From the NCBI RefSeq assembly GCF_028736115.1, contig NZ_CP117877.1, forward strand, positions 2,232,001 to 2,296,000: DNA of 64,000 bases, written 5' to 3'. Each line of letters begins with the position of its first letter. Position 1 is the stretch's first letter. The notes under the pieces are model-generated. The model saw only the letters and a program-made list of their open reading frames with translations, was not told the DNA's origin and ran no database searches. This stretch comes from Mucilaginibacter sp. KACC 22063. Its GTDB lineage: Bacteria; Bacteroidota; Bacteroidia; Sphingobacteriales; Sphingobacteriaceae. Below are positions 32,800 to 58,472 of this stretch, in pieces. The position numbers and the translations under genes are program-made.

Positions 32800-33468
32800 A
32801 TGTTTATCTTAGGTGAATGTAAAATGTTTGTTGTGAACGGTTGGGCAGATAAAATTTCAAGAGGATCCGATTTAGCGTCTGACTGGCATACTTTCCTTCA
32901 TCAATCAAGTGAGCCAGCCTTTAAGCGTATCTATACGCATTACTACCATTATTTATCCTTTATTGGCAACAAAAAAGGATTTAATGCAGTATTGGTACAA
33001 GATACTATAAATGAGTTATTCCTATATATATGGGAAAATTCAGATCGCCTGTTACACGTTAAAAATCATCACAACTATCTGATCACTTCTTTTTTGCGTA
33101 AGCTTTACAAAGACGATAATATAAAAACAGAGGACATTGCCGGTTTAACAGATCTTCCGGAATCTCTTTTGGTGCCTTCGGCAGAAACCATTCATATTTA
33201 CAATAATAATAGCACTAAATATACCGAAGCACTACTTAAAGTGGTGAACCAGTTGCCCGAGCGGCAGCGTTTAATGATCTATCAGAAATTTTATCTTGGC
33301 CTTTCGTACAATGAGATAGCTGATACTAATAATGTTTCTATAAATACAGTTTATAACACCATATATAAGGCTATTTCTAATCTCCGCGACAATATTAATG
33401 ACGAAGATTTACTTCTTTATAGCCTGGTTTCCATTTTTGTTTTATTTTTTTTAATTTTTTTCAAATAA
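32800..33468 (+). CDS. ECF RNA polymerase sigma factor with hydrophobic C-terminal tail
   Basis: The 222-aa sigma-70-family protein has region 2 (AFKRIYTHYYHYLSF, QDTINELFLYIWEN) and region 4 (LPERQRLMIYQKFYLGLSYNEIA, then NVSINTVYNTIYKAISNLR). The last 20 residues (LLLYSLVSIFVLFFLIFFK) form a strongly hydrophobic helix, which suggests membrane attachment. It precedes FecR and SusCD in the usual order of an outer-membrane signalling system: substrate binding to SusC, FecR relays, sigma is freed. Met9 at 32824 is an alternative start. Confidence 0.88.
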   Translation: MFILGECKMFVVNGWADKISRGSDLASDWHTFLHQSSEPAFKRIYTHYYHYLSFIGNKKGFNAVLVQDTINELFLYIWENSDRLLHVKNHHNYLITSFLRKLYKDDNIKTEDIAGLTDLPESLLVPSAETIHIYNNNSTKYTEALLKVVNQLPERQRLMIYQKFYLGLSYNEIADTNNVSINTVYNTIYKAISNLRDNINDEDLLLYSLVSIFVLFFLIFFK

Positions 33469-33519: not shown

Positions 33520-34746
33520 ATGGATCAAACTCAGTCTGAAAAGCTACTAAAAGACGAATCGTTTATAAATTACTGTCTCGAAAAAAACGAGAGTGATATT
33601 CTTTATTGGCAAAAATGGATCAATGAACATCCGGAAGATCAGGCTGAAATAACTAAACTTAAAAATTTTGTTACGGGCTTAGGCATGGTTGCTGCACAAC
33701 AGCAGGCAGAAGCGCAATATACACTGCTGCAACAAAGCATAAAACAGTCTTCTCAAAACGTTAAAAAACTTAAACCTTATCACATATTTTATTACGCAGC
33801 TGCATGCGTATTGGCTTTGATAGCTATTGGTGCATACTTTATTGTTGCACATAAGACTACTGCTAATAATTATAGCTATAACAAAAAACATGATGTAACA
33901 CCGGGTGGTAACAATGCACTGCTTGTTTTGGCTAATGGTAAAAAGATAGACCTGACCAATGCCAAAGCCGGATTGCTTATAAATGAAAAGGGAATCAGTA
34001 TTTCTAAAAATGCCGATGGACAGGTTGTTTACAAAATAAATCCTAAATCAAATTTGGCCGATAAAGGCCTGGTTGGCATTAATACCATTGAAACGCCTGC
34101 AAAAGGGCAATACATGGTTGTTTTACCGGATGGGACAAAGGTTTGGCTCAACGCCAAAACTACATTGAAGTATCCCGAAGCCTTCCCTGAAAATGGCAGG
34201 GAGGTAGAACTAAACGGAGAGGGATATTTTGAGGTAGCGCATTTGGTTGATTCTAAGACAGGCAAAAGAATAAGATTTACTGTTAAAACCACACCAAATG
34301 CAAATGGTAAAGTACAGTATATAGAGGTATTAGGTACACACTTTAATGTTAACTGTTACCAGGACGAACCCGATGCGGTAACTACGCTTCTTGAAGGTAG
34401 TGTGAAGGTGACGGATGCTGATCAAAAGCGTGAAGCCCTGCTGCATCCGGGTCAGCAATTAATAAACGGAAAGCATAATTTTGATGTAGTGCAGGCCAAT
34501 ACTGAAGCGGCCATTGCATGGAAAAACGGTGACTTTGTGTTTCATGAAGACGTGAGCAGTGCGTTAAGAAAGATTGCCCGCTGGTACGATGTGGATGTAG
34601 TTTATCTGCCTGGTGCTCCCCAACACCTGATGTTAGGCGGATGGATTTCACGGAAAAACAATTTGTCAGATGTGCTTAATATGATAGAAGCCACCGGCAA
34701 AGTTCATCTTAAACTTGAAGGAAGGAGGGTTTTGGTTACGGAGTAA
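33520..34746 (+). CDS. FecR-family anti-sigma factor
   Basis: The 408-aa protein has an N-terminal cytoplasmic segment, one membrane helix (YYAAACVLALIAIGAYFIV, about residues 90-110) and a periplasmic FecR domain with VVLPDGTKVWLNAKTTLKYP, VELNGEGYFEVAH and IEVLGTHFNVNCY, ending in the STN-like VDVVYLPGAP and DVLNMIEATGKVHLKLE. It should hold the ECF sigma encoded 51 bp upstream and sense the STN domain of the following SusC. Length is typical of the Bacteroidota form. Confidence 0.93.
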   Translation: MDQTQSEKLLKDESFINYCLEKNESDILYWQKWINEHPEDQAEITKLKNFVTGLGMVAAQQQAEAQYTLLQQSIKQSSQNVKKLKPYHIFYYAAACVLALIAIGAYFIVAHKTTANNYSYNKKHDVTPGGNNALLVLANGKKIDLTNAKAGLLINEKGISISKNADGQVVYKINPKSNLADKGLVGINTIETPAKGQYMVVLPDGTKVWLNAKTTLKYPEAFPENGREVELNGEGYFEVAHLVDSKTGKRIRFTVKTTPNANGKVQYIEVLGTHFNVNCYQDEPDAVTTLLEGSVKVTDADQKREALLHPGQQLINGKHNFDVVQANTEAAIAWKNGDFVFHEDVSSALRKIARWYDVDVVYLPGAPQHLMLGGWISRKNNLSDVLNMIEATGKVHLKLEGRRVLVTE

Positions 34747-34768
34747 AACTACACATCATCAAGCCCAT

Positions 34769-34807
34769 AAAATAAAAAAGCCAAAAGTGCTGCGAACACT
34801 TCTGGCT
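34769..34807 (-). terminator. Orphan terminator facing away from susC (minus strand)
   Basis: Arms 34779-34789 and 34797-34807 form an 11-bp stem with a 7-nt loop. Read on the minus strand the stem is continuous (one G-U pair) and is followed by TTTTTT; read on the plus strand the same position is an A-C mismatch and no T-run follows. So this terminator works leftward, although no minus-strand protein gene ends here. An outer stem (34761-34767 with 34818-34824) surrounds it. Confidence 0.75.
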
Positions 34808-34897
34808 GTAATTTGCCTGGGCTTTCCCCAAATTTAAACTATCATTTAAACCTGCAAAAACGCTGATGCTTCCAAACAATAGCGCTTTGCAATAACA
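34771..34897 (-). ncRNA. Candidate cis-antisense RNA to the susC leader (locus 1)
   Basis: The 160-bp gap between FecR and SusC ends with the leftward terminator at 34771-34807. Two minus-strand promoters are possible. One is TACATTTG at 34911-34904, overlapping the susC start codon, giving an RNA of about 125 nt. The other is TTTG (34858-34855) N18 TAAATTTG (34836-34829), giving about 50 nt. The RNA would pair with the susC 5' leader. The arrangement matches antisense RNAs reported for Bacteroides SusC loci under ECF/FecR control (DonS type, as I recall). No expression data are available. Confidence 0.4.
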
Positions 34898-34906
34898 AAC
34901 TAACAA

Positions 34907-37900
34907 ATGTATAAAATTTATACTATTGATTTTGTCGTACCCAAACGACAGCTCCAAAAAACCCTGCGTATTATGCGATGGACGACCCTGTTTCTACTGG
35001 CTGGTCTTCTTCAGGTTAGTGCGGCAACCCTGGCCCAGCACGTAACGCTGAAGAAGCAAAATGCTTCGCTTGAAAGTGTATTACAAGAAATACATCGTCA
35101 GAGCGGTTTTGACATTGTTTATGACCTTGATGTTGTAAATAAAGCAAAACCTGTAACACTTGACTTAAAAGACGCTACCATTCAGGTGGCTCTGGCTTCC
35201 GCTCTTTCAGGAAGGCAGCTTTATTTCGAGGTAGATAATAAAAAAATCATTATCAGGGAAAAATCGCTGATAGACAAAATAAAGGATGTCCTCCCTGCAT
35301 CTGTCGATATTCGTTGTATTGTAACAGATAGTCTTGGCAATACACTTCCTGGTGCTTCAGCTTATGTAAAGTTTAGTAAAGTGGGGTATATGGCAGACTC
35401 AAAAGGCGAGTTTGTTGTTCCTAACGTAGGTGAAGCCGGTGTAGTACTTGTCGTATCTTATGTAGGTTATCAAACCCAGGAAGTATACTTCAATACCCGC
35501 GACAAAAGCCCCTTCAAAATCATCATGAAGCCGTCCATGAATCGATTAAACGAGGTTAAGGTGGTATATGATGGTTATCAAACAATCTCTAAAGAACGTG
35601 CAGCAGGTGCTTATGCAACACTTGGACATGAAGAACTTCAGGTAACTCCAAGCGCCAATTTGATGGAGCGGCTTGTAGGTAAAATGCCGGGCGTAAATTT
35701 TGATCTTAAGTCAAATACTATTCAGGTAAGGGGGGTAAACGATTATTCCACCGTTGGCCAACCGCTAATTGTTGTTGATGGTTTTCCACTGATCAGCCCA
35801 AATGATCAACCGCAAATTACTACACCACTAAGCGGCGTAGCAGGTAATGCGATCATCAACCGTTTTAATCCGGACGATATCGAGCAGATCACAGTATTAA
35901 AAGATGCATCTGCAACTTCCATATGGGGGTCACGCGGAGCAAATGGTGTTATCGTTATTGAAACACGTAAGGGAAAAAAAGGCATGCCGGTTCTTAATGT
36001 AAATTATACATTAGGTGTTACCCAGCGTCCTAATCTTAATCAATTGGCGTGGATGAACAGCAGCCAGTATATTGATTTTGAACAGGAACTGGTTAATCGT
36101 GGTATTCTTACAGACCCTGCTTTGGCACCAAGCTACAATGCCATTTACACGCAAAATAACAGCGATGCTACAGAATGGATGTTTCGTGTACAAAGAGGGA
36201 CAGCGACACCTGCCCAACGTGATGCTGCCCTGGCTGAGCTAAGCACACACGACTCGCGCCAACAGATCAATAAATACCTGCTGCAAAACAGTGTTACACA
36301 GCAAGCCAATATTTCTGTGTCTGGCGGGGCCGAAAATACAACTTACAGTGTATCTGGAAATTATACAAAAAATATACCTTTCTACAAGAATAACTACGGG
36401 AAAACATTTTATTTAAATTCAAACCTTTCTTCAGGCTTGTTTAACAAACACCTGATTTTTCATACCGGGTTAAATTATCAGTATGATAATACGCAATATA
36501 ATGGTGCCGCAATTGATGCATTATCCAATACAACCACATCGTTAAGGCCGTATGATAATCTGGTAGATGCAAATGGCAACCACATACAACGCACCTATCT
36601 TTTCAGGCAATCAATTGCAGATAGTTTAGTAAGGCAAGGTTATCTGCCATTTAGTTACAATGCGCTTGATGAGTTGAATTATTCAAACACAGTATCTACA
36701 ACCAACAATTTCAGGGTAACTGCCGGCTTAACAGGCAAATTTACGAATTGGTTAAACGCTGACATTTCTGCTATGAGCCAACGACAAGTGCTTGGCATTG
36801 TTGGTGTAAATGAACTGAACAGTTATGCTAACCGTATTCAGTTAAATACGGCAACATCTGTTGCAGATAACGGGCAATTGGTTTATGGGCTTCCTTATGG
36901 AGGCACTTATTATGAAGACAATAACAGTGCTTATGATTCAGATCTCAGAGGGCAACTGAATTTGGATCATACTTTTAAGAATGATCACCAGGTAACGGCT
37001 TTACTGGGTACAGAAATACGCGAAACAGGAAGTAAAGAATCCAATTCTACCAGGTATGGTTTTAATCAGGACGCGAACAGCTTAGGGCCATTTAATCCCT
37101 CAGTGCCTTACATGACATTGTATGGCTATTCTCAAACTTTAAGTAATAATCTTTCAGGCATAACTGAGACAAGGAGAAGATATTTATCTTATTATGGTAA
37201 CGCTGGTTATAGTTTTAAAGATAAATATTTTGCAACCGGAAGTTTCCGTTTTGACGATGCAACGCTTGTCGGTGTGGCACGCAGTGTAAGGGCAAGGCCT
37301 TTCTGGTCAACAGGCTTAAGATGGAATGCAACAAGAGAAGATTTCTTAAGCAATATTAGCTGGTTATCAAGTTTAGCACTTCGCGCCTCATACGGTACCT
37401 CTGGTACTATACCTACAACAGGTTCAAATGTTACCGTAATTAGTGTAGGAAATTTAGCAGATAACCGTACAGGTTTAACAGCAGCTGCTATCAATACACC
37501 AGCTAATGCGTCTCTTAAATGGTCAACTACAAGACAATTAAACTTAGGGACAGATTTTAGCCTTTTCAAAGGCCGTTTAATTGGAAGTTTCGACATTTAC
37601 AATAAAAGGACAGACGGAATTGTAAGGTACCTGCCATTTAACCCAACTTATGGTTGGTCTGGTTTATACTACAATACTGCAAAAATGACCGGTCATGGAA
37701 TTGACCTGGGTATTACAGGTGAGATTATTAAATCAAGCCAATTCCACTGGAGCTCTACTTTTAACTTTAGTTACACCACCAATAAAATAACAGACGAAAG
37801 GTTTGAGACTCAGGCTAATAATTTGGTATCCGGAACCTCAAGTGTGAACGGTTTGCCGGTAGGGTCGCTTTTTGTTTATCGTTGGGCCGGTCTTGACAAC

Positions 37901-38521
37901 CAGGGGCAATCTCAGATTTATGATAGAAATGGTAAAGTAATATCCGCTAACACGTCTATTTTAAATTTTACGCGTGCTGATTTAAAATATGCAGGCGTTA
38001 CTTACCCGCCATATACAGGTGGTTTCTTTAACACTTTTACCGTAGGGCCGTTTACCGCTACCGCACAAATGACTTATTACTTCGGTAGCGTATTTATGCG
38101 CCAGTCTGTAACTACTAATAATTATCCAACCAGTGGTAATTCGCAATTTTACGGTTCAATTGGTAAGACGCAGGATATGGCTTACCGCTGGCGCCAGCCG
38201 GGCGATGAGGCGATAACCAACGTACCAGGTATAGAATACTCAAGCTATAACAGTATTTATCGTTACCAGTACTCAGATGCAATGTTAGAAAAAGGCGACC
38301 ATATCAGGTTACAACAAATAAGCCTTTCATACAATGTTCCGACCAGGCTATTGCCTAAAAATGCAATAAAAGCCTTATCAATAGGAGCAAATGTGCAAAA
38401 CCTGGGCATCATATGGCGGGCTAATAAAGATCACCTGGACCCATTATTTACCAACACGGCTAACTACGCTAACCTGCCGCCTGCAAGAAATTACTTACTG
38501 CGTTTAAATGCTTCATTTTAA
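34907..38521 (+). CDS. SusC/RagA TonB-dependent transporter with STN domain (ECF-regulated)
   Basis: The 1204-aa protein has QKTLRIMRW before the signal helix (FLLAGLLQVSAATLAQ), an STN domain (residues about 50-115, SLESVLQEIHRQSGFDIVYD), a carboxypeptidase-like domain (IVTDSLGNTLPGASAYV), a plug (LIVVDGFPLIS, ATSIWGSRGANGVIVIETRKG) and a barrel ending LRLNASF. The STN domain is the contact for FecR, so this is a signalling transporter. The QKTLRIM segment is also present in the SusC at 54800-58327, supporting the start. It is followed by SusD, thioredoxin-like and protease genes, so a peptide or protein substrate is more likely than a glycan; this is inference. Confidence 0.94.
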   Translation: MYKIYTIDFVVPKRQLQKTLRIMRWTTLFLLAGLLQVSAATLAQHVTLKKQNASLESVLQEIHRQSGFDIVYDLDVVNKAKPVTLDLKDATIQVALASALSGRQLYFEVDNKKIIIREKSLIDKIKDVLPASVDIRCIVTDSLGNTLPGASAYVKFSKVGYMADSKGEFVVPNVGEAGVVLVVSYVGYQTQEVYFNTRDKSPFKIIMKPSMNRLNEVKVVYDGYQTISKERAAGAYATLGHEELQVTPSANLMERLVGKMPGVNFDLKSNTIQVRGVNDYSTVGQPLIVVDGFPLISPNDQPQITTPLSGVAGNAIINRFNPDDIEQITVLKDASATSIWGSRGANGVIVIETRKGKKGMPVLNVNYTLGVTQRPNLNQLAWMNSSQYIDFEQELVNRGILTDPALAPSYNAIYTQNNSDATEWMFRVQRGTATPAQRDAALAELSTHDSRQQINKYLLQNSVTQQANISVSGGAENTTYSVSGNYTKNIPFYKNNYGKTFYLNSNLSSGLFNKHLIFHTGLNYQYDNTQYNGAAIDALSNTTTSLRPYDNLVDANGNHIQRTYLFRQSIADSLVRQGYLPFSYNALDELNYSNTVSTTNNFRVTAGLTGKFTNWLNADISAMSQRQVLGIVGVNELNSYANRIQLNTATSVADNGQLVYGLPYGGTYYEDNNSAYDSDLRGQLNLDHTFKNDHQVTALLGTEIRETGSKESNSTRYGFNQDANSLGPFNPSVPYMTLYGYSQTLSNNLSGITETRRRYLSYYGNAGYSFKDKYFATGSFRFDDATLVGVARSVRARPFWSTGLRWNATREDFLSNISWLSSLALRASYGTSGTIPTTGSNVTVISVGNLADNRTGLTAAAINTPANASLKWSTTRQLNLGTDFSLFKGRLIGSFDIYNKRTDGIVRYLPFNPTYGWSGLYYNTAKMTGHGIDLGITGEIIKSSQFHWSSTFNFSYTTNKITDERFETQANNLVSGTSSVNGLPVGSLFVYRWAGLDNQGQSQIYDRNGKVISANTSILNFTRADLKYAGVTYPPYTGGFFNTFTVGPFTATAQMTYYFGSVFMRQSVTTNNYPTSGNSQFYGSIGKTQDMAYRWRQPGDEAITNVPGIEYSSYNSIYRYQYSDAMLEKGDHIRLQQISLSYNVPTRLLPKNAIKALSIGANVQNLGIIWRANKDHLDPLFTNTANYANLPPARNYLLRLNASF

Positions 38522-38528
38522 GAAAGAC

Positions 38529-39887
38529 ATGAAAAAATATATATATACGATATTAGTGCTGGCTGCTACAGCAACCAGTTGCCGTAAATATGTTGAAATT
38601 GCTCAACCGGGTATCCGTACGCTGAAATATACAACCGACTATCGCTACCTGCTTGATAATTCGCAGACTTTTGAAGGTAGTTACAGCACGCCTATATTAT
38701 CTGGCGACGATACAGAATATACTGATCCCAAACAGCAAAATGTTATACAAACCAGTTGGGCAAATGCCTATACCTGGAGTGATTATTATGTACCGGAAAC
38801 AGCCGGCGATGTGGACTGGGAGAAGTTATACAATATCATTTATAATTGTAATGCAGTAACCGATGGCGTAATGAAATCAGAAGGCGGATCAGATGCAATG
38901 AAGCGTGAGTTATATGCTGAAGCATTGGTACACCGCGCTAACTGCTATCTTACTTTAGTTACGCTTTACAGCAAACAATATAATGCCGCAACCGCTGCAA
39001 CAGATTTGGGTGTTCCGCTTTTATTAACCCCGGATCTTTTTGCTAACTTAAAAAGAGCAACGGTAGCCACTGTTTACAGCCAGATTTTGGATGACCTTAA
39101 ACGGTCTGTAGCGGCGTTGCCTGCTTTGCCGACTTATAACATCCGCCCGTCAAAGGCAGCAAGCTATGCGCTTTTAGCTAAAACATACTTAAACCTGCGT
39201 GACTTTAAAACCGCTGGTTTATATGCTGATAGCACCCTGCAATTGCAGAACACACTGCTTGACCTGAAAGCTTACAGCGATGAACCTGGTACTATACCAA
39301 AAAGGCTTGTTGACCCAGAAGTAATCTTATCAAAAATTGTAAACGGATATTATGCAGGCATACCTATCAGCGCTTATGCTTTAAATCTTTTAGGTACCAA
39401 CGATTTGCGTTATACGATGTTTACACGCGATGGTTCTGCATTCTTCCCATCCTTTAAAGGTCGCGCAAACTGGCGTTACATGTTAAACGGCGAGTCGGCC
39501 ATACAAACCGGCCCGTCTGTACCAGAGGTAATGCTAACCAAAGCAGAATGCCTTGCACGCCAGGGAGATGCCGCAGGTGCGATGGCTGTTGTAAACGCGC
39601 TTCGTAAAAAACGCTTTCTGGATGCAAACTATACTGACCTTACAGCAGCAGACGCTAATGCAGCACTTAAAATTGTTGTTGACGAACGCGAACGCGAGTT
39701 TACCGGTCGCGGGTTCCGTTGGTTTGATCAAAGGCGTTTAAACCTCGATGCCAGCTTTGCAGTAACAAAAACAAGGGTGTTTAAAGGAGTAACTTATACA
39801 CTTGCGCCAACTAGTAACCGCTACGTGTATCCGATAGGGCAAAAGTATATCCTGATGAATCCCGAGATACAGCAAAATCCACGATAA
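38529..39887 (+). CDS. SusD/RagB lipoprotein (ECF-regulated locus)
   Basis: The 452-aa protein has a lipoprotein signal (MKKYIYTILVLAATATSC), helical repeats (EALVHRANCYLTLVTLYSKQY, AASYALLAKTYLNLRDFKTAG), AECLARQGDAAGAMAVVNALRKKRF and the C-terminal EREREFTGRGFRWFDQRRL with ending EIQQNPR. It is rather short for a SusD, which fits the small-ligand group. The longer frame from 38508 overlaps SusC; the ATG at 38529, 7 bp after the SusC stop, gives a clean lipobox. It partners the SusC just upstream. Confidence 0.93.
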   Translation: MKKYIYTILVLAATATSCRKYVEIAQPGIRTLKYTTDYRYLLDNSQTFEGSYSTPILSGDDTEYTDPKQQNVIQTSWANAYTWSDYYVPETAGDVDWEKLYNIIYNCNAVTDGVMKSEGGSDAMKRELYAEALVHRANCYLTLVTLYSKQYNAATAATDLGVPLLLTPDLFANLKRATVATVYSQILDDLKRSVAALPALPTYNIRPSKAASYALLAKTYLNLRDFKTAGLYADSTLQLQNTLLDLKAYSDEPGTIPKRLVDPEVILSKIVNGYYAGIPISAYALNLLGTNDLRYTMFTRDGSAFFPSFKGRANWRYMLNGESAIQTGPSVPEVMLTKAECLARQGDAAGAMAVVNALRKKRFLDANYTDLTAADANAALKIVVDEREREFTGRGFRWFDQRRLNLDASFAVTKTRVFKGVTYTLAPTSNRYVYPIGQKYILMNPEIQQNPR

Positions 39888-54799: not shown

Positions 54800-57700
54800 T
54801 TATAATGAAAGATTAACACCCAACAGGTAAGTACGCGGCGTAGCATAAGTACCCTCATCGATACCAAAATTGGTTACACCGCCATTTAGCTCAGGGTCAA
54901 TACCCGAGTATCCGGTAATGGTGAACAGGTTAGTGGCAGACACGTAAACCCTTAGCTTTTTAACCCCGATGCGATTCAGCGCCTTTGCAGCAAAGGTGTA
55001 CCCCAGCTGTGCATTTCTTGCACGCAGGTACGAGCCATTTTCAACAAAGTAAGAGTTAGGAACCGAGCCGCTGCTGAAAGAAGCATCAAGCTCCTGAATC
55101 GGCGCTTTGGCGTTATGGTTTTGAGGTGTCCATGAATCATATAGCGCAGTGCTGCTTTTTGCCGTTTCAAACGACGAATAGAAATCGCGCCAGTATTTTA
55201 CGTTGTTCCAAACCTTATTGCCAACTGTGGCATACAGCAAAATATTGAAATCGAAGTTTTTGTAAACTGCACCCAGGTTTAAACCTGTATTAAACTTAGG
55301 GCTTGGGTTGCCCAGGAAGGTACGGTCGGCATCTGTAATTTTACCGTCGCCATTGGTATCCTGATAACGGAAACGGCCAACTTTGGTATCTGTCTGGTAA
55401 ACCGCATTAGGGTCGCCACTCGCTTTTTGTGCACCTGCGTTAGCTGCATCAATTTCCGACTGGCTATTCCAGAAACCAACAATCTTGTATCCATAAAACT
55501 CACCGATGGCGTGGCCAACCTGGTTGCGTACAAATGTATTGTCGAATCTTCTCGAGATATCAGAATCGAAGTAAGTAGCATTATCGCTCAGCTTTAGTAT
55601 CTTATTGTTATAGCTGGTAAAAGTTAAGGTCGCATTGATCCTGAAATCCTTTTGAATTTTAAAGTTTCCGGTTACCGATGCATCAATACCGTCAGTCCTC
55701 ATGCGTGCAATATTTACAGCCGGTGCAGCGCCATTACCATTGGTGCCAAGCAGTTCGGCCGCAAATAATAGGTCACGTATGTCTTTTCGGTAATAGTCAG
55801 CCGTTACCTGTAGCATATCGCCAAAGAAAGAGGCGTCGAAACCAAAGTTGCTATTGGCATCTTTTTCCCAGCGAGCGTTAGGATTGGCTATTCTTGACTG
55901 GTAAAATCCAGGAATAACCGAATTGGTGCCATTGAGGTTATAGTAAGACTGGCCTATATCAGAACTAAAAGCTGCAAAGCGGTTGGCCGGATCAACATTC
56001 AGCTGATTACCCATAATGCCGTAACCGCCCCTAAGTTTCAGGTCTGTTAACCATGCGGCCTTTTTCAGGAACGACTCTTGTGATATGCGCCAGCCTGCAC
56101 TAAATGCCGGGAACCAGCCATATTGATACTTGGTTGAAAACCGGGATGAACCATCGCGCCTTATTGTGGCGTTAAACAGGTATTTATCATCAAATGTATA
56201 ATCCAACCGTGCAAATTCAGAGAACAGTGAAGTAACATTGCGATTGCTATAGTTGGATGCCGTTGAAGCATCGCCGGTTGAAAGATCTACATAGTCGGGA
56301 TCGAAGCTGTAGTAATTTTTACGGCTGCCCCCTAATACACTTGAGTGTTCTTCGTTAGCTTCGGTGCCCACAACTGCACGGATGTCATGTTTGGCTATTT
56401 TTTTATGCCATGCTAAGGTATTAGTCCAGGTAAAGTTATAGTTACTGTAGCTGTCCTCATTGTAACCATTGGTGATCGAATTTTCAGCGTTTTCATAAGT
56501 AGGGTAGGTGAAGTAGCTGGAAATGCCAGAAGCGGTTTCGCCACCAAAATTGGTACGGATGGTAAAGTCCTTCAAAAAGTCGGCTTCAGCAAATACGTTA
56601 CCAAATAAGCGATAAAAATTAGAACGGTTAGTGCGCGAACGCTCCTGTATAGCCACCGGATTATTGGCATCCCCCAGTCCGGTGCCGTAGCTGCCGGCAT
56701 AGTTGCCAAAGATATCGTGAACCGGGATGATTGGCTGCTCACGGATAGCCATAGTAATTACCGCATCCGGATTGTTAGTGGATACCTGCGGATTTTGTGT
56801 AATAGAATAAGCCAGGTTTTCGCCTATGCGGATGTTTTTGTTGAAGTTATAAGTGCTGTTTGAGCGTATAGTATACCTTTTTTCATAAGTATCAATCAGG
56901 GTACCCTGCTGGTTATAATAATTTAAAGAAAATAAATAGCTGCCCTGTTCACCGCCACCGCTTATAGCAAGATTGTGGCTGGTCATTGGCGCTGTTTTAA
57001 ATATGGCATGGTACCAGTCGGTGCCTGTTTTGTTGGCTTTAACGATACGATAGAATGAATTGTAATCGTCTGCCGAGGTATAATAAGGATTGATATAGTA
57101 AAGAGATGGATCTACAGAAGCGTCACCTGCATGTGCACCCGCTGGGGCAATATAATCTGGTAGTACATAGGTAGGACCGTCGCCATACTGCGGATCATCA
57201 AAATTTGTGATACCCGAATTGGTTTGTGCTATCCTTTTAAGGTTAGCCATTTCCTGCGGGTTTAACGTATTCCAAACGTTGCCGCCTTTGGGTACCTGCC
57301 TTCCATAATAAGCATCGTATTGAATGGTTACTTTGCCTTTACCTTTTTTGGTTGTGATAATAATTACACCGTTAGAGGCACGTGAACCATAGATAGAAGC
57401 TGAACTGGCATCTTTCAGTATCTGAAAGGTTTCTACATCATTAGGGTTAATGGTACTTACATCCTGCGTAGGTATACCATCTACCACATATAGCGGCGAA
57501 TTATTGCCAAAGGTGTTAAACCCCCTGATTCTAACCTGTGGCTCAGCCCCTGGCTGGCCCGATCCGATTACCGTAACGCCTGATGCCTGTCCCTGTAATT
57601 GTGTGTTTACTGAAGATGTTGGTGTTTTGTTAAGGTTGGCAACATCAACTACGGCAACGGCTCCGGTAAGGTCTCTTTTCTTCTGCGTTGCATAACCCAC

Positions 57701-58327
57701 CACTACAACTTCATTCAAACCCTTTATCGCTTCGCTCATTTTTACGTCTATCACACTTCTGCCGCCAATGGCTATTTCCTGTGTAGCGTAACCAAGAAAT
57801 GAAAATACAAGCGTTCCCTGGGCATCTGGTATGTTTAAGCTATATTTACCCTGTCCGTTTGTGGTGGTTGCTATATTAGTGCCTTTAAGCTTTACTGTAA
57901 CGCCCGGTAACGGTGCGTTTGTAGCATCTGTAACCGTACCGGTGGTGGTTTGTGCTGTAACATTAATATTCACAGGCTTAATGACAATCATATTATCCAC
58001 CAGTTGAAAATCAAGCGGCTGGTTTTGCAGCACGGCTTTCATTACTGATTCAATATCAACGTCTTTAAGGTCAACGTCAACTTTTTGGTTGGTTTTAACC
58101 TGATCAAGCCTGTAAAATATGGTATACTTTGAGTTTTGCTCAATCTTATTAAACATCTGCTTTACAGTTACTTCATGTTCGTTGAAGCTAAATGTTTTCT
58201 GAGAGTAAGCAGTTGCATGTATCTGCATTACTGCAACAAAGAGCAAAATTGTAGCAAGCTTCATGATTCTGAGCGTTTTTTGCCAGTAGGTAAGGGCAAT
58301 ACAATGCCTCCTATAGAAATTAATCAT
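54800..58327 (-). CDS. SusC/RagA TonB-dependent transporter with STN domain (second ECF-linked locus)
   Basis: The 1175-aa protein has QKTLRIMKL before the signal helix (ending ATAYSQ), an STN domain (about 45-120, VKQMFNKIEQNSKYTIFYRLDQV), a carboxypeptidase-like domain (TGTVTDATNAPLPGVTVKLKG), GLNEVVVVGYATQKK, the plug (LYVVDGIPTQDVS, ASIYGSRASNGVIIITTKKG) and a barrel ending LLGVNLSL. The STN domain pairs it with the FecR encoded 145 bp upstream. A terminator facing the opposite way lies in that gap (58399-58430). Confidence 0.95.
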   Translation of the reverse strand: MINFYRRHCIALTYWQKTLRIMKLATILLFVAVMQIHATAYSQKTFSFNEHEVTVKQMFNKIEQNSKYTIFYRLDQVKTNQKVDVDLKDVDIESVMKAVLQNQPLDFQLVDNMIVIKPVNINVTAQTTTGTVTDATNAPLPGVTVKLKGTNIATTTNGQGKYSLNIPDAQGTLVFSFLGYATQEIAIGGRSVIDVKMSEAIKGLNEVVVVGYATQKKRDLTGAVAVVDVANLNKTPTSSVNTQLQGQASGVTVIGSGQPGAEPQVRIRGFNTFGNNSPLYVVDGIPTQDVSTINPNDVETFQILKDASSASIYGSRASNGVIIITTKKGKGKVTIQYDAYYGRQVPKGGNVWNTLNPQEMANLKRIAQTNSGITNFDDPQYGDGPTYVLPDYIAPAGAHAGDASVDPSLYYINPYYTSADDYNSFYRIVKANKTGTDWYHAIFKTAPMTSHNLAISGGGEQGSYLFSLNYYNQQGTLIDTYEKRYTIRSNSTYNFNKNIRIGENLAYSITQNPQVSTNNPDAVITMAIREQPIIPVHDIFGNYAGSYGTGLGDANNPVAIQERSRTNRSNFYRLFGNVFAEADFLKDFTIRTNFGGETASGISSYFTYPTYENAENSITNGYNEDSYSNYNFTWTNTLAWHKKIAKHDIRAVVGTEANEEHSSVLGGSRKNYYSFDPDYVDLSTGDASTASNYSNRNVTSLFSEFARLDYTFDDKYLFNATIRRDGSSRFSTKYQYGWFPAFSAGWRISQESFLKKAAWLTDLKLRGGYGIMGNQLNVDPANRFAAFSSDIGQSYYNLNGTNSVIPGFYQSRIANPNARWEKDANSNFGFDASFFGDMLQVTADYYRKDIRDLLFAAELLGTNGNGAAPAVNIARMRTDGIDASVTGNFKIQKDFRINATLTFTSYNNKILKLSDNATYFDSDISRRFDNTFVRNQVGHAIGEFYGYKIVGFWNSQSEIDAANAGAQKASGDPNAVYQTDTKVGRFRYQDTNGDGKITDADRTFLGNPSPKFNTGLNLGAVYKNFDFNILLYATVGNKVWNNVKYWRDFYSSFETAKSSTALYDSWTPQNHNAKAPIQELDASFSSGSVPNSYFVENGSYLRARNAQLGYTFAAKALNRIGVKKLRVYVSATNLFTITGYSGIDPELNGGVTNFGIDEGTYATPRTYLLGVNLSL

Positions 58328-58340
58328 AGATTTGTGGTGT

Positions 58341-58430
58341 TATTAGTTAATACAGTGCTTCCCCAAGCGTCGGGTATTAGCTATTAATAAGATTTGTTGC
58401 CCGGTATGTTCCTGCATTCCGGGCTTTTTT
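58341..58430 (+). ncRNA. Candidate cis-antisense RNA to the susC leader (locus 2)
   Basis: TAGATTTG at 58327-58334 (plus strand, a full TAnnTTTG match) touches the susC start codon on the other strand. A rightward terminator ends at 58430, so an RNA of about 90 nt would cover the 5' leader of the susC mRNA. No -33 TTG is at the standard distance. Position and orientation mirror the candidate at 34771-34897. Confidence 0.4.
58399..58430 (+). terminator. Orphan terminator facing away from susC (plus strand)
   Basis: GCCCGG (58399-58404) pairs with CCGGGC (58419-58424), with an inner ATG/CAT pairing, followed by TTTTTT (58425-58430). It works rightward although no plus-strand protein gene lies to its left; the susC and fecR genes here are both on the minus strand, where no T-run follows the stem. 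Confidence 0.75.
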
Positions 58431-58472
58431 CATGCAGTAGTAATTATTTTTCTTTCATAAGCCTCGTTTAAC

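Follow-up and report, generated by a model that had tools for sequence, protein, structure and literature searches.

A predicted DonS-like cis-antisense RNA between fecR and susC at a SusCD, thioredoxin and peptidase locus of Mucilaginibacter sp. KACC 22063

The genome of Mucilaginibacter sp. KACC 22063 is a single contig of 4.81 Mb, and the stretch analysed here (the window) covers 64,000 nucleotides of it, positions 2232001-2296000. The locus of interest contains, all on the plus strand, genes for an ECF sigma factor (32800-33468; Sigma70_r4_2 above the cut-off, the Bacteroidetes ECF model TIGR02985 under it), a FecR anti-sigma factor with FecR and FecR_C domains (33520-34746), a SusC/RagA outer-membrane transporter with an STN domain (34907-38521; TIGR04056, 540 bits) and a SusD-like lipoprotein (38508-39887; SusD-like_3, SusD_RagB), followed by genes for a thioredoxin-like protein, an S41 peptidase and a TlpA/ResA-like (thioredoxin-like) protein. 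Gene calls and domain matches thus bear out two statements of the first-pass annotation of this DNA, that all genes around the element described below lie on the plus strand and that the transporter is linked to thioredoxins and a protease. The sphingobacterial lineage proposed at the same time agrees with the 16S gene, which shares 92.7% identity with its Pedobacter hiemivivus counterpart across 1243 bases. The stop of fecR at 34746 and the start of susC at 34907 leave a gap of 160 nt. An ECF sigma/FecR pair lies directly upstream of susC, the setting by which susC-divergent antisense RNAs are recognised.

Within this gap the minus strand reads, from 34807 to 34779, AGCCAGAAGTG-TTCGCAG-CACTTTTGGCT and then continues into the T-run TTTTTTATTTTAT (34766-34778). 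The resulting hairpin has 11 stacked pairs, or 13 when two loop-adjacent pairs are counted, and has the form of an intrinsic terminator; across 20 kb, 25 terminator-like sites were listed, and this one ranked first. Folding of both strands showed that the combination of an 11-bp hairpin and a T-run would work as a terminator on the minus strand only, as had been claimed: the minus-strand RNA folds at -16.8 kcal/mol and runs into the T-run, whereas the plus-strand RNA reaches -12.0, lacks a T-run and carries an A-C mismatch at the position that forms a G-U pair in the antisense RNA. When a stricter detector was applied, only 12 terminators were retained in the 64-kb window, among them the antisense hairpins of both its FecR-SusC gaps (34779-34807 and 58399-58424).

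The second element of the gap is a minus-strand TAnnTTTG box, TACATTTG (34904-34911), which is a perfect sigma-A -7 box in sequence and is placed around the susC start codon (CAA-ATG-TA on the sense strand), exactly as annotated earlier. Hairpin, T-run and start-codon box are therefore confirmed as observations. According to the relevant passages of PMC9723704, the TAnnTTTG box sits at -12 to -5 of the start site, which puts the RNA start some 8-12 nt before the ATG. A search for a -33 element upstream of the start-codon box revealed none; in Flavobacterium johnsoniae, likewise, such an element could not be identified (PMC7366714). A generic sigma-70 scan (TTGACA/TATAAT) was uninformative, as expected for Bacteroidota. 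Taken together, box and terminator delimit a predicted non-coding antisense RNA of about 128 nt on the minus strand (34772-34899), with its start 5 nt past the box and its 3' end within the T-run, near 34772; the length deduced from the two elements is about 126-128 nt, a prediction and not a measurement. Both elements precede the TIGR04056 SusC gene on the minus strand, that is, they lie on the strand opposite to a susC homologue and at its 5' end. No Rfam family passed the threshold anywhere in the window, and the gap showed chance-level matches only when the threshold was relaxed.

A further promoter had been suggested closer to the hairpin. The corresponding sequence, TTTG-N18-TAAATTTG on the minus strand (34829-34858), is indeed present, but as a promoter it probably reflects chance, since four such pairs occur in the window against 2.6 expected and the site is not seen in sister loci. 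It was therefore rejected as a supported part of the unit.

In order to judge how unusual this arrangement is, background rates, which are those of a single genome, were taken from 20 spaced 20-kb stretches (400 kb) of the same genome together with the window. The terminator detector was written for this study, with thresholds set during the work, and gene starts were longest-ORF calls made with a lax rule. Among 128 co-directional gaps measuring 30-350 nt, the strict detector found antisense-only terminators in two, namely the FecR-SusC gaps of the window; a looser, folding-based detector added two more among the remaining 126 gaps. The genome contains ten FecR genes, and the same antisense terminator element is present at seven of the ten junctions, compared with 2 of the 126 other co-directional gaps (Fisher p about 3e-8). 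The box shows a similar bias. It was found at the start codon of 5 of the 10 FecR-linked genes, as opposed to the called starts of 2 of 371 other genes, and at none of the 25 SusC genes of the genome without FecR; SusC translation starts therefore do not carry it as a rule.

The second FecR-SusC locus of the window has a device of its own on the plus strand (58327-58472), antisense to a susC at 54800-58327. There, a -7 box TAGATTTG (58327-58334) lies at offset -7 from the start codon and a hairpin GCCCGGTATGTTCCTGCATTCCGGGC-TTTTTT (58399-58424) was picked up by the terminator detectors; the predicted RNA is about 90 nt long. In this genome the device is missing from three FecR junctions (L006, L009 and L010), whose gaps are as short as 7, 11 and 30 nt; this suggests a second class of junctions that lack the antisense unit and where fecR is co-transcribed with the receptor gene. 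One SusC gene that is not listed as FecR-linked (L243; G000, 1183230-1186412) has an antisense hairpin, GGACCGCGTGAATGCTGCAACATTCACCGGTTC-TTATTT, 104 nt upstream and is possibly a locus from which fecR has been lost or in which it has diverged.

The analysis was extended to FecR junctions sampled at the levels of genus, order and class, the class sample favouring the best-scoring FecR genes. Among 145 junctions from several families with gaps of at least 80 nt, an antisense terminator was found in 109 (75%) and a sense one in 9 (6%), a box in 82 (57%) and both antisense elements in 73; the loci are related, so that p-values from such pooled counts are not those of independent samples. The home family contributed 93 of these long-gap junctions, of which 75 have an antisense terminator and 59 a box, and smaller samples from four further families of the class, from Sunxiuqinia indica and from Arcicella aurantiaca were alike. 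About a quarter of the long gaps have no detectable hairpin, and short gaps are mostly devoid of the device (hairpin in 7 of 36). The position of the box is equally restricted: at the called starts of the 145 junctions, 23, 37 and 6 boxes (66 in total) occur at offsets -3, -7 and -8, respectively, versus 41 over 158 other offsets. Of 68 FecR junctions, almost all of them from the same genus, 35 had a perfect antisense TAnnTTTG at one of these three offsets; the same lax rule gave 5 among 371 background genes. The RNA lengths predicted for 78 loci have a median of 98 nt and in 68 cases fall inside 78-128 nt, although nothing in the calculation was fitted to this published range.

Orthologues of the susC studied here (39-46% identical at the protein level) keep the device with changed stems in P. 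hiemivivus, in S. indica and at three of four same-genus loci; the fourth ortholog-like locus (L018) has a gap of 21 nt and no device. Hairpin, T-run and box are thus kept at orthologous as well as paralogous FecR-SusC gaps, which supports, at the level of sequence, the earlier proposal that the device is present in this lineage. No shared ECF promoter motif was found by eye in the alignment of the orthologous gaps, where a short stretch is common to three orthologues only. The genome of P. hiemivivus (G238) has 126 FecR_C matches and is a promising one in which to search for the device. It was also observed that boxed FecR-linked SusC proteins often start with Met-Lys-Phe, Met-Tyr-Lys or Met-Asn-Phe (L001-L148 compared with L236-L265), which gives AAATTT(C/T)A directly upstream of the antisense box, the usual SusC start being Met-Lys-Lys or Met-Arg-Lys. 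The antisense promoter may constrain the first codons of FecR-linked SusC. As regards the hairpin apex, the motif RTG[TCG]T, which was chosen on the home family, occurs in 26 of 78 home-family and 12 of 38 other-family loci versus 3 of 71 ordinary terminators of the genome, and is perhaps a recognition loop or a protein site. A T-loop-like apex (UNNNAR) was rejected, being no commoner than in ordinary terminators.

The hairpin could in principle serve the sense strand, either as a leader structure or attenuator of the susC mRNA or as the terminator of the sigma-fecR operon, given that it also forms, more weakly, in plus-strand RNA. An alignment of 27 hairpins revealed double-sided changes in all 11 stem pairs, and sliding the partners by 1-3 columns abolished the pairing. 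Since the hairpin detector itself demands pairing, more weight was given to a strand-neutral test, in which the best inverted repeat of each of 133 gaps was chosen by Watson-Crick pairs only, with T-runs ignored. In this test, G/T-type positions would form G-U pairs in the antisense RNA in 117 cases and in the sense RNA in 12, i.e. ten times more rarely, and a T-run followed on the antisense side in 89 gaps and on the sense side in just 2. Compensatory and G-U changes therefore fit the antisense RNA only, and sense-strand roles, which would in addition leave the antisense box at the start codon unexplained, were rejected as very improbable. Terminator, box, strand, conservation and geometry of the predicted antisense unit can accordingly be regarded as established from sequence.

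Two further explanations accept the antisense hairpin and differ in what the box or the transcript would do. The box might belong to the translation-initiation context of susC, with the antisense RNA starting elsewhere, for example at 34824 from the proximal site. The latter has both -33 and -7 elements, and the start-codon box overlaps an A-rich leader that is often common to SusC genes. However, all 25 SusC genes lacking FecR and 369 of the 371 gene starts are free of the box, which occupies three registers relative to the ATG, while the proximal site has no more matches than chance provides and no counterpart in sister loci; we therefore consider this explanation improbable. Somewhat less improbable, albeit still unlikely, is that the antisense transcript acts by transcriptional interference only, a sigma-A polymerase on or leaving the start-codon promoter blocking the ECF-driven polymerase and the RNA itself having no role. 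Such a scheme would be in line with facing promoters within about 100 bp and with a box that is fixed at the start codon while the body of the RNA shows no sequence conservation. On the other hand, the efficient, covarying terminator and the narrow length range suggest a defined RNA product, and the hairpin apex is unusual in comparison with ordinary terminators. The gap is best read as encoding a cis-antisense RNA of the DonS type, in a locus that combines susCD with thioredoxin and peptidase genes.

DonS and PUL-associated cis-antisense RNAs of gut Bacteroides were reportedly described by Cao et al. in 2016. The first-pass annotation had referred to an antisense device of this kind at Bacteroides susC loci, and it is found in the literature, in the pertinent parts of PMC7366714 and PMC10994844. 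The former gives a length range of 78-128 nt for the DonS family, and DonS represses its PUL in B. fragilis, as cited in passages of PMC10994844 and PMC11697453. The RNA predicted here resembles DonS in that it would be encoded opposite the beginning of a susC homologue within an uptake locus of Bacteroidota, in its predicted length of about 128 nt against the 78-128 nt reported there, and in its ECF/anti-sigma setting, which is described as typical of host-glycan PULs in part of PMC11697453. It differs in that DonS belongs to Bacteroides and stands beside glycan enzymes, whereas the present locus is from Sphingobacteriaceae and encodes thioredoxin-like proteins and an S41 peptidase, and in that expression and repression were demonstrated for DonS, the case made here being one of sequence. 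By position and setting, the predicted RNA is a member of the susC-divergent cis-antisense RNAs, which are DonS-like in the broad sense. As the genes after susCD (thioredoxin-like, S41 peptidase, TlpA/ResA-like) include none for glycans, it is not filed as DonS in the narrow sense, that of a mucosal-glycan degradation locus; the distinction is one of gene content. The independent antisense transcripts of Flavobacterium psychrophilum (PMC9723704) are comparable as short antisense units with TAnnTTTG promoters in Bacteroidota other than Bacteroides, but the passages of that article on these transcripts cite the B. fragilis susC case only as a prompt for flavobacterial work and contain no FecR-SusC device. 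A search of the literature outside subscription papers returned no description of the device beyond Bacteroides. What appears to be new is its reach across the class, its occurrence at a non-glycan locus and the promoter box fixed on the start codon, although existing Bacteroides data may already imply the last of these.

We consider it probable, on the strength of the sequence comparisons above, that a stand-alone gene in the gap specifies a cis-antisense RNA, some 128 nt long, that silences susC until the ECF sigma factor is released. From the layout we infer that the unit is transcribed, where the ECF promoter lies, and that susC is repressed and by what route. Sigma-A (housekeeping) polymerase would start the antisense RNA at the promoter with its -7 box over the susC start codon; transcription would then cross the susC leader and the region presumed to hold the FecR-controlled ECF promoter and end at the hairpin beside fecR. 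Without inducer, the antisense RNA, or its transcription, would silence leaky susC transcripts. Pairing between the RNA and the susC leader could extend to the ribosome-binding region, some 8 nt short of the ATG, and antisense and ECF-driven polymerases may also collide. Once the ECF sigma factor is released by FecR, sense transcription would outrun the antisense RNA and susCD would be switched on along with the thioredoxin and peptidase genes. Repression of susC by the antisense RNA is, by analogy, likely but not certain at this locus, and it need not hold for every pair, because some of the 32 such RNAs of B. thetaiotaomicron correlate positively, and others negatively, with their susC or PUL, as reported in passages of PMC10994844, which, given these mixed correlations, call for functional study of susC antisense RNAs.

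The same layout recurs at most of the long-gap FecR-SusC junctions sampled, including those of environmental lineages and non-glycan loci. There is, in our judgement, an even chance that FecR-gated SusC loci throughout the class possess the antisense unit as an ancestral and almost standard component, with a housekeeping promoter in the start codon and a terminator just after fecR, and that this unit shapes the first SusC codons and sets a threshold which only the FecR-released sigma factor overcomes. The fixed geometry leads to simple predictions, namely a transcript that would begin some 8-12 nt ahead of the ATG and end just past fecR. The question thereby becomes testable in tractable soil species, and existing strand-specific data sets can be mined genome by genome. 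Caution is also advisable when the start codon of such susC genes is edited, as this would alter a predicted promoter as well.
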